Origin: a bacterium
GTDB taxonomy: Bacteria > SZUA-79 > Acidulodesulfobacterales > Acidulodesulfobacteraceae
Reading direction: 5' to 3'
DNA: 64,000 nt
NCBI GenBank assembly: GCA_021818985.1
Contig: JAKASO010000008.1
Coordinates: 1 to 64,000 of the forward strand
The notes beneath the pieces were generated by a model. It had not been told where the DNA came from and made no database searches. It saw nothing but the letters and a program-made list of their open reading frames with translations. Both the position numbers and the translations under genes were made by a program. Shown piece after piece: positions 1-30,983 of this stretch (position 1 is its first letter; each line of letters begins with the position of its first letter).

Positions 1-457
1 TTCCGCCTGAATTAATGCTTTCACCTGCTTGATTTATTGCATAAGCAGTTTGAACAGTTGAAAGTTCATCAATATTTACTGCAACCGGCATGTTTGAAGC
101 GCTACCTGCTATTGATATCAGATGACCAGTGGGCAGAACTGCCACTACGTAAAGAATAGGATTTGAAGAAGAAGTATAAGTGTATGAGAAACTATAATTG
201 CCGTTAGAGTCGGTGGTTGTATTATTTGTCGGATTTGTATCTCCTGCTACGTATAAATAAACGGAAACACTGGGTATTGGACTTGTTCCGCCCGATACCT
301 GTCCTGAAAGTGTAACTGTCGAAGAAGAGGGACTGGACGGTGAGGAACTGGATGAGCTCCCGCAGCCGGATAGGTATAAGGGAACGACAAGGATTAACAA
401 TAACAGGGTTAAAAGGTAAAACCTGCGGGAATGTTTGAAAGAGGGTTTAGTATGCAT
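1..457 (-). CDS. Surface lipoprotein with carboxypeptidase-regulatory-like domain (partial, C-terminus off the window)
   Basis: An open frame runs from ATG at 457 to the window edge with no stop (152 codons seen). A good ribosome site, GGAGGC, lies at 467-462. The N-terminus has basic residues, a Leu-rich hydrophobic stretch (residues about 14-27) and a lipobox LSGC with Cys about residue 32, so it should be exported and lipidated. A Ser/Pro-rich linker follows, then a beta-rich segment (LSGQVSGGTSPIPSVSVYLY, then DSNGNYSF) typical of carboxypeptidase-regulatory/CnaB-like repeats found in surface proteins. Exact function is unknown. The promoter with a poly-G spacer upstream suggests phase-variable expression. 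Confidence 0.8.
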   Translation of the reverse strand, partial: MHTKPSFKHSRRFYLLTLLLLILVVPLYLSGCGSSSSSSPSSPSSSTVTLSGQVSGGTSPIPSVSVYLYVAGDTNPTNNTTTDSNGNYSFSYTYTSSSNPILYVVAVLPTGHLISIAGSASNMPVAVNIDELSTVQTAYAINQAGESINSGG

Positions 458-553
458 AATTGCCTCCTAAAATAATTACATTTATATTTAATGTCTATTC
501 GCTCGTTGCAAATAGAAATATTTTAAAAAGAATAGTACATTACCTTATTGTAA

Positions 554-580
554 ATTATACCCCCCCCCCAGAAATGTCAA
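554..580 (-). promoter_or_regulatory. Consensus promoter with G10 homopolymer spacer (likely phase-variable)
   Basis: Read on the minus strand, TTGACA (580-575) and TATAAT (559-554) both match the sigma70 consensus perfectly. They are separated by 15 nt, of which 10 are consecutive G. The predicted start of transcription is near 547, about 90 nt before the lipoprotein ATG at 457. A 15-nt spacer is suboptimal. Gain of two G by slipped-strand mispairing would give the optimal 17 nt. That is the logic of known poly-G/C spacer switches in other bacteria; here it is inferred. Confidence 0.75.
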
Positions 581-640
581 GGGGTTTTTTATAGAAAACG
601 GTAGATAGGTACGAAATGCCTTAAATCCTGCAGTTTTGAA

Positions 641-717
641 TGGGGTGGATGACAGGTTTTGAACCTGCGACCACCGGAGTCACAATCCGGGGCTCTACCA
701 GCTGAGCTACATCCACC
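641..717 (-). tRNA. tRNA-His (GTG anticodon)
   Basis: The minus strand folds as a full cloverleaf. It has the extra 5' G typical of tRNA-His, a D arm starting GTAGCTCAGCTGG, anticodon loop TTGTGAC with anticodon GTG, T arm GGTTCAAAACC, and an encoded CCA at 643-641. It lies between the lipoprotein gene and the LigD-type gene, with no other tRNA beside it. Confidence 0.95.
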
Positions 718-1255: not shown

Positions 1256-1311
1256 CATAATTAATTACAAAATCAAAATAACAAAAATAACAAAAAAGAT
1301 TGAGGCTTGAT

Positions 1312-2454
1312 ATGAGGACGGATTTTTTGATCTCAAAAAAAAATGCTGCTGAAAAACTGATTGAATTGGGACAAAGCCCGTGGCTTGACAATATTTCAAG
1401 ATGTATTATTGATTCCGGAGAACTTGCGGCATTAGTAAAAAATAGTATAATCACCGGTGTAACTTCCAATCCGTCCATATTTGAAAAATCCATAAATTCG
1501 GGAAAATGCGGCTATCCGGAAATAATCAGGGAAATGTCCTTAAAAGGACTCAATACATTTTCAATATATGATGCTATAACACAAAAAGATATAAAAGACG
1601 CCGCTAAAATACTTTTTCCAGTTTATCTCAAAACGGGGGGGGGCGACGGCTTCGTAAGCATCGAAGTGCCTCCTGATATTGCTTCGGATACAGTAAGTTC
1701 GGTTAGAGAAGCAAAGCGCATATTTGCATCGGTAGCCTCCAAAAATGTCTTAATTAAGATCCCTGCAACAAAAGAAGGCTTGCCCGCGATCACCGAGCTT
1801 ATTTCTAACGGAATAAACGTCAACGTTACACTGATGTTCTCTTTAAAACACTATACGGATGTTAGTTCCGCCTATACCCAGGGCTTAAATTTAGCCGTTA
1901 AGAACGGCATAGACCTTAAGAATATACATTCCGTTGCTAGCGTTTTTGTCAGCAGGATTGATACTTTTATTGACAGGCAGTTAGACGGGCTTGCAAAAAA
2001 TGAAACAGGCCCCCGCAAAGAATCTTTAATAAATCTAAAAGGAAAAGCTGCAGTTGCTAATTCCAAAATAATATTTAAAAAATATTTGGAAGTAATTAAC
2101 GGCGAACGGTTTAAAACCCTTAAATCTTTGGGCGCAAACATCCAAAAGCCCTTGTGGGCTAGCACAAGTACTAAAAACCCTGATTATTATGATCTAAAAT
2201 ATGTGGAGCCGCTAATCGGTAAAAATACCATAAATACCTTGCCGGATATTACCTTAGAGGCGTTATGCGACCATGGTCTTTTAAAAGCGGATACGATATT
2301 TATGGATTTTGACGCTGCCAAAAAAACAATAAAAGAACTCTCTTACTATGGAATAAACCTGGACAATGCCGGTGAAATTCTTCAGGAGCAGGGAGTTAAG
2401 GCATTCGAAGATTCTTACGAGAAACTCTTAGATTCGATAAAAAATGTAAAATAA
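1312..2454 (+). CDS. tal: Transaldolase
   Basis: Transfers a dihydroxyacetone unit between sedoheptulose-7-phosphate and glyceraldehyde-3-phosphate in the non-oxidative pentose phosphate pathway. About 380 residues, the longer transaldolase type. The signatures GVTSNPSIFEKSI (about residues 49-61) and VLIKIPATKEG (Schiff-base Lys about 149) are clear. ATG 1312 is preferred over the in-frame TTG at 1300 because TGAGG at 1301-1305 is a well-spaced ribosome site for it. A run of nine G (1635-1643) lies inside the gene, coding Gly-Gly-Gly; slippage there would truncate the protein. The transketolase gene follows after 81 nt. Confidence 0.93.
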   Translation: MRTDFLISKKNAAEKLIELGQSPWLDNISRCIIDSGELAALVKNSIITGVTSNPSIFEKSINSGKCGYPEIIREMSLKGLNTFSIYDAITQKDIKDAAKILFPVYLKTGGGDGFVSIEVPPDIASDTVSSVREAKRIFASVASKNVLIKIPATKEGLPAITELISNGINVNVTLMFSLKHYTDVSSAYTQGLNLAVKNGIDLKNIHSVASVFVSRIDTFIDRQLDGLAKNETGPRKESLINLKGKAAVANSKIIFKKYLEVINGERFKTLKSLGANIQKPLWASTSTKNPDYYDLKYVEPLIGKNTINTLPDITLEALCDHGLLKADTIFMDFDAAKKTIKELSYYGINLDNAGEILQEQGVKAFEDSYEKLLDSIKNVK

Positions 2455-29627: not shown

Positions 29628-30902
29628 TTATTCCTTTTCCCATTTCTTCAACACTAACGTTGCGTTGGTGCCGCCAAACCCGAAAGAATTCGAGATGGCA
29701 TATCTAACGTTAGTTTTTCTCATTACGTTAGGAACGTAATCGAGATCGCATTCTTTGTCCGGCTCATTAAAATTGATAGTAGGAGGTATTATTCCCGTGT
29801 AAACACTCAGGGTCGCGGCAACGGCTTCAATGCCTCCTGCGGCACCAAGAGCATGTCCCACCATGGATTTTATTGAACTGACCATCACTTTTTTTGAATG
29901 TTCCTTAAATAGCCTTTTAATGCCTCTCGTTTCATTTATATCGTTATAATATGTGGATGTTCCGTGAGCATTAATGTAATCAACATCTTCAGGCAAGATC
30001 CGTGCATCGTCCAGCGCATTTTTCATACTGTAATATGCCCCGTCGGCACCGGGATCTGGAGTGGATATATGGTATGCGTCGGAAGACAACCCATATCCAG
30101 TTACTTCGGCGTATATTTTTGTCCCCCTATTAACGGCGCTTTGCAGATCTTCAAGTATTACGATGCCGGCGCCTTCACTAACAACAAAACCGTCCCTGTC
30201 TTTGTCAAAAGGTCTGGATGCTTTAGCCGGTTCGTCATTTCTTGTCGAAAGTGCCTTCATGGCATTAAAACCAGAAATGCAAAGAGGGGTGATAGTGGAT
30301 TCAGTGCCTCCGGCTATCATAACATCGGCATCTCCCCTTGCAATTACTTTATAGGCATCCCCAATGGAATTAGTGCCTGTAGAACAGGCAGAAACCGTAC
30401 TCGCATTGGGACCTTTGGCACCAGCCATGATCGAAACCTGTCCCGACGCCAGATTTATAAGCAGCATCGGTATAAAAAACGGGGAAATCTTTTTTGGACC
30501 GCTTTCAAGTAGCAGGGTATGGTATTTTTCGATAGTCATAAGCCCGCCGATGCCGGCGCCAATCCAAACACCTACTCTATGGGCATTTGAATCATTTATT
30601 TTGAAACCGGAATCTGAAAGAGCCATTTTTGCACATGCCGCCGCATAATGGATAAATTGATCCATTTTTTTCACATCTTTTTTATCAATAAACTTTTCAG
30701 GGTCGAATCCTTTAACCTCCCCGGCTATTTTTGTTGCATAATTAGACGCGTCAAAACGGGTTATCATACCTATGCCACTTACCCCTTTTATCATGTTGTT
30801 CCAGGAAGTTTCCGCGTCGTTTCCTAAAGGAGTGATCATTGACAATCCGGTAATGACGACCCTTCTATTGCAATCAAATTTTTCCATTTTCGTATACCGC
30901 AT
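29628..30902 (-). CDS. fabF: 3-oxoacyl-[ACP] synthase II
   Basis: 424 residues. Condensing enzyme of fatty-acid elongation. The catalytic triad is visible: Cys in VSACSTGTNSIG (about residue 172), His in NAHGTSTYYND and His in MVGHALGAAGG. The N-terminus RRVVITGLSMITPLGND and C-terminal SFGFGGTNATLV are typical. ATG 30887 (giving MEKFD) is an equally good or better start than ATG 30902. Follows acpP after 81 nt, the classic acpP-fabF order. Confidence 0.95.
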   Translation of the reverse strand: MRYTKMEKFDCNRRVVITGLSMITPLGNDAETSWNNMIKGVSGIGMITRFDASNYATKIAGEVKGFDPEKFIDKKDVKKMDQFIHYAAACAKMALSDSGFKINDSNAHRVGVWIGAGIGGLMTIEKYHTLLLESGPKKISPFFIPMLLINLASGQVSIMAGAKGPNASTVSACSTGTNSIGDAYKVIARGDADVMIAGGTESTITPLCISGFNAMKALSTRNDEPAKASRPFDKDRDGFVVSEGAGIVILEDLQSAVNRGTKIYAEVTGYGLSSDAYHISTPDPGADGAYYSMKNALDDARILPEDVDYINAHGTSTYYNDINETRGIKRLFKEHSKKVMVSSIKSMVGHALGAAGGIEAVAATLSVYTGIIPPTINFNEPDKECDLDYVPNVMRKTNVRYAISNSFGFGGTNATLVLKKWEKE

Positions 30903-30983
30903 CCGTAATAAAACCAGATATTTTTATTTATTATAAATAGATCAATATTTCTGAAACTTTTTTACTTCAAAATTCACGCCGGA

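Follow-up and report, generated by a model that had tools for sequence, protein, structure and literature searches.

A poly-G tract in the spacer of a sigma70-type promoter ahead of a lipoprotein gene, a candidate phase-variable promoter with relatives across the phylum SZUA-79

Introduction

The strength of sigma70 promoters depends on the length of the spacer between their two hexamers. In some bacterial promoters this spacer contains a homopolymer. In Neisseria meningitidis, the porA promoter carries a poly-G tract between the -35 and -10 boxes, and the gain or loss of a single G alters transcription (PMC3899988). Another example is the Neisseria fetA/frpB promoter, which is switched by a poly-C spacer (PMC5320596). 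In Campylobacter and Helicobacter, G/C homopolymers form contingency loci (PMC8355987, PMC2823697). Phase variation of a different kind is found at the pdcB switch of Clostridioides difficile, where it occurs by DNA inversion and concerns a phosphodiesterase (PMC9286219).

In this work, we describe a candidate promoter of the porA and fetA type in a contig of Ca. Acidulodesulfobacteriota (SZUA-79), a phylum with genomes of 0.88-3.04 Mb and a GC content of 28-44% (PMC11382960). The window, meaning the whole analysed stretch of 64,000 nucleotides, has a GC content of 38%, and its base 1 is base 1 of a 73.5-kb contig (C66) of the genome designated G000. The comparison set comprised 30 genomes of the phylum, all of one family and 0.9-3.0 Mb in size; these sizes, the GC content and the single family agree with the placement in this phylum, and dsrA exceeded the cut-off in 23 of the genomes, G000 included. 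Phase variation and c-di-GMP are absent from the main text of the description of Ca. Acidulodesulfobacterales (PMC6776010).

The window locus shares with porA a G tract in the sigma70 spacer ahead of a surface-protein gene, and differs from it in having a lipoprotein as its target and in belonging to an uncultured, probably free-living acidophile lineage. With fetA/frpB it has in common a homopolymer that determines the distance between the -10 and -35 boxes; that tract is described as poly-C, whereas in this phylum G on the coding strand is preferred 20 to 1. Many poly-G/C tracts per lineage, acting on surface genes, are also a feature of Campylobacter and Helicobacter, but those bacteria are host-associated and their tracts are both intergenic and intragenic, while the tracts analysed here are promoter spacers in an environmental phylum. 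Some sister loci are comparable to pdcB, as phase variation there lies upstream of a c-di-GMP enzyme; in contrast to an inversion acting on a phosphodiesterase, they have a homopolymer tract and mainly GGDEF cyclases.

The Promoter at the Window Locus

The promoter lies on the minus strand, at window positions 580..554, and reads TTGACA TTTCT GGGGGGGGGG TATAAT. Both hexamers, the -35 box (575..580) and the -10 box (554..559), match the consensus at 6/6 positions. The spacer between them (560..574) has the form TTTCT-G10 and measures 15 bp, and the G10 tract (560..569; C10 on the plus strand) makes up 10 of these 15 positions. The sequence thus confirms the preliminary description, which had reported perfect TTGACA and TATAAT boxes 15 bp apart with G at 10 of the 15 positions. 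A spacer of 17 bp would need G12. Three features of the porA/fetA class are present together, namely both hexamers on the coding strand, a homopolymer covering 10/15 of the spacer, and an exported product.

Perfect TTGACA-N10-22-TATAAT pairs occur 42 times in G000, compared with 9 occurrences of the reversed pattern, so they constitute a genuine signal in this genome. Their commonest spacer is 17 bp (about 10 of the 42), while 15 bp is rare (3 cases; both counted manually). The number of G8+ runs in G000, about 24, is close to the 9-25 expected under Markov models of order 1-3. A genome-wide excess of poly-G was therefore rejected, and the argument rests on the position of the tract and on its recurrence.

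The presumed 5' untranslated leader extends over 458..547 on the minus strand, with the transcript assumed to start about 7 nt past the -10 box; a scan of this leader for further promoters gave chance-level matches only. Upstream, on the same strand, the promoter is adjoined at a distance of 60 bp by a tRNA-His gene (641..716), a neighbour outside the switch. A CCCC-TTGACATTTCT-GGGG hairpin was considered as an intrinsic terminator of tRNA-His and rejected on inspection, as it has no T run after it; the C arm is also missing at several sister loci, and a terminator scan gave no entry at this place. Two other G tracts were recorded in this genome. A G9 tract at window positions 1635-1643 is found inside a transaldolase-like ORF (1300-2454, plus strand), where it is read in frame as KTGGGDGF and a slip would break the enzyme. 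A G10 run in another contig (C74, positions 30902-30911; L144) abuts a tRNA-Ala gene at its 5' end.

The Downstream Lipoprotein Gene

The gene behind the promoter is an ORF on the minus strand (457..2) whose start lies 97 bp from the -10 box. A Shine-Dalgarno sequence, AGGAGG (463..468), precedes the ATG at 457 by 5 nt. The ORF covers 152 aa from the 5' part of a gene for a Ser-rich lipoprotein and is incomplete, being cut off at base 1 of the contig, where the window also begins; a search for the rest of the gene in the other contigs of G000 did not find it. The signal peptide MHTKPSFKHSRRFYLLTLLLLILVVPLYLSGC (362..457), conserved in the phylum, combines an N-terminal positive charge, a hydrophobic core and a lipobox cysteine (LSGC, Cys32), as expected of a signal peptidase II substrate. 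This peptide and its lipobox support the earlier proposal that the controlled gene encodes an exported Ser-rich lipoprotein, and we infer that the product is exposed at the surface. Past the signal peptide, a Ser-rich stretch is followed by weak SdrD_B and CarboxypepD_reg matches, both under the Pfam cut-offs.

Lipoprotein genes lie directly 3' of a tRNA gene or its remnant in three genomes (window 457-716; L069, ~1268-1330; L150, ~330-404), which suggests insertion at tRNA ends. When the window gene (2-457) is compared with its counterpart in G011 (L149), the promoter, leader and signal peptide are almost identical and the mature lipoproteins differ, as though a common promoter-signal cassette had been combined with different protein bodies.

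Recurrence Across the Phylum

The preliminary description had proposed looking for the same layout in related genomes, and it is present there. The pattern TTGACA-N2-9-G7 was counted at 13 loci, spread over 11 of the 30 genomes, with 0 occurrences of the reversed control. Neither this sharing of the layout throughout the phylum nor the prominence of diguanylate cyclases among the targets (see below) had been noticed in the preliminary description. Eleven of the 13 loci run on into a -10-like box; the other two (G013:C17 and G016:C86) appear to be coding.

The reverse approach started from the G runs themselves, using 146 sampled G9+ runs with their flanks and, as a control, shuffled flanks. 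Fifteen of the 146 lie in a promoter scoring 10/12 matches or better, compared with an average of 0.8 after shuffling. With a threshold of at least 9/12 and TTTAAT-type -10 boxes allowed, 20 of the 146 are promoter spacers, whereas shuffling gave 3.3 on average (maximum 9); at this threshold 20 have G on the coding strand and 1 has C. A partner-swap control for the joint occurrence of both boxes (observed 16, mean 10.9, maximum 19) is less decisive because AT-rich flanks often hold a -10-like hexamer, and it indicates that the promoter excess comes mostly from the -35 side.

Outside the phylum, TTGACA-N-G7 was found in 82 of 356 genomes, compared with about 35 for the reversed pattern (a control counted manually). 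The motif TTGACATTTCT-G7+ also occurs in MAGs labelled otherwise (bacterium DP16D_bin.2, Acidobacteria and Parcubacteria; L110, L112, L115), three times before exported-looking genes. Poly-G spacers may be more common among bacteria than has been recorded. The motif was not found in viral contigs.

Genes Behind Poly-G Promoters

Lipoproteins with a similar signal peptide stand behind G-tract promoters in G000 (G10), G011 (G5AG), G015 (G10), G025 (G7) and G026 (G11). An exported protein of 175 aa is preceded by a poly-G promoter in G001, G016 and G025, and membrane PAS-GGDEF proteins are found in this position in G001, G004, G008, G009, G010, G016, G022 and G025. A GGDEF-EAL protein (G028), a chemotaxis receptor (MCP), a TonB receptor, a NicO transporter and a NosZ-propeller-like protein are among the other targets.

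About 406 GGDEF domains were counted across the phylum, an estimated ~0.7% of genes, yet of the roughly 15 gene groups with a poly-G promoter, 6-7 are of this type. The corresponding binomial probability of ~1e-9 overstates independence, since most of these cyclases are mutual paralogs. A general upstream-tract enrichment over all GGDEF genes was also considered and is weak: a G7+ run lies upstream of only 4 of 76 usable top-scoring GGDEF genes, compared with 1 of 53 window ORFs, and the association is confined to one subset of sensory cyclases. At two further loci (G016:C65:2637 and G022:C5:15856), a G9/G10 tract follows right after a start codon, with a GGDEF domain just downstream on the contig; these tracts are possible translational switches.

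Tract-Length Variation Between Alleles

Alleles were compared in five pairs of segments, each pair near-identical and drawn from different assemblies; the alignments span 13,358 bases. They contain 16 mismatches and 3 indels, and all 3 indels fall inside five G/C runs of at least nine bases. In three pairs the tract indel is the only indel, and 2 of the 5 pairs have no tract change. The 68 A/T runs of at least six bases in the same pairs contain 0 indels, but only one of these runs is as long as nine bases, so that run length is poorly controlled for. The clearest case is that of G016:C45 and G009:C160, which share 99.9% identity across 2,291 bp. A single mismatch and a single indel separate them, and the indel is G10 versus G11 in the spacer of a GGDEF-gene promoter. 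In G008, this promoter falls where the ends of two contigs meet, one with G13 and the other with G11. These alleles belong to bins of different genera, and the presence of near-identical contigs across genera suggests binning errors or mobile DNA. Homopolymer indels can also be errors of sequencing or assembly; homopolymer trouble in Illumina data is reported mainly above 14 bp (PMC8808543).

For the window locus, the sole comparison is G011, which is near-identical over the alignment (query 126-244) and has the spacer TTTCTGGGGGAG, with G5AG and a length of 12 bp. Across loci and relatives, spacers vary in length between 12 and 20. One orthologous locus has exactly G10 in three relatives (G001, G016 and G025). 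The lipoprotein promoters of G009 and G014 have G-rich interrupted spacers, CGGCGTGGTG and GGGAGGTG, and some lipoprotein paralogs have a T8/T9 run where the G tract would be, so a homopolymer is not required. In two related paralogs (L147 and L152), a T run stands straight after TTGACA and differs in length between the two promoters.

Proposed Mechanism and Alternative Explanations

We interpret the window locus as a sigma70-type promoter with a slippery poly-G spacer of the porA/fetA kind, belonging to a phylum-wide phase-variable set, and give this reading a probability of roughly three in four. Replication slips would add or remove G in the tract, and each change would shift the spacer toward or off the optimum of ~17 bp. 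By analogy with Neisseria porA and fetA, the assembled 15-bp state (G10) is probably weak and the 17-bp state (G12) would be strong, and lipoprotein expression would then vary from cell to cell. The anatomy of the promoter, its recurrence, the strand bias and the tract differences among near-identical alleles of sister loci are observed; from these we infer slippage within populations, an effect on transcription, and adaptive value. The preliminary description had already proposed that tract slippage tunes expression, and comparison lends this idea support, short of proof, through the recurrence of the layout, the tract differences between alleles and the 12-bp spacer of G011.

The G-rich spacer might instead be a fixed structural or regulatory element, such as stiff DNA or an overlapping protein site, whose length is no switch. 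The G-rich interrupted spacers kept in G009 and G014, the unchanged G10 of three relatives at one locus, and the occurrence of TTGACATTTCT-Gn before other genes in unrelated MAGs are all in keeping with this explanation. A fixed site would, however, hardly tolerate spacers of 12 to 20, the indels of near-identical alleles all fall in G/C tracts, and no conserved flanking motif was seen besides the promoter boxes and the TTTCT-like start, so that we consider a fixed element unlikely. Somewhat less probable still is a real promoter in which poly-G is a neutral by-product, with slippage-expanded G runs tolerated in spacers and no selection for switching. It would agree with a G8+ run count in G000 no higher than the Markov expectation and with the presence of poly-G spacers beyond the phylum (82 of 356 genomes versus about 35 for the reversed pattern), but neutral runs are not expected to show a bias of 20 G to 1 C, nor to concentrate before lipoprotein and diguanylate-cyclase genes (6-7 of ~15 gene groups, compared with 0.7% among all genes, in a count that is not fully independent given that the cyclases are partly paralogous).

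Poly-G read noise, producing a sequencing or assembly artefact, would explain why some very long G runs are located at contig ends or next to odd sequence, and two assemblies do break at such a tract. The window tract, on the other hand, is internal to its 73.5-kb contig, with 560 bp between it and the end, and is flanked by perfect promoter boxes, and the G10 of one orthologous locus is repeated in three separately assembled genomes; an artefact is thus very improbable.

Beyond the single promoter, the phase-variable reading can be extended to a multi-locus poly-G contingency system, in which random tract states would set the expression of several membrane-anchored PAS-GGDEF cyclases and of surface lipoproteins. 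DNA slippage would in this way make c-di-GMP signalling differ from cell to cell, and with it attachment or motility. We put this extension forward tentatively, at slightly less than even odds.

Significance

Most contingency loci of this type have been described in host-associated bacteria, and their usual explanation is immune evasion. The mechanism itself is already known; the novelty lies in the lineage, in the scale and in having diguanylate cyclases as targets. Genes for surface proteins and signalling enzymes are probably switched up and down in this group by random copying slips. That such promoters recur in an acid-mine lineage which is probably free-living, and that diguanylate cyclases are one of their commonest targets, points to host-free bet-hedging on attachment and signalling.
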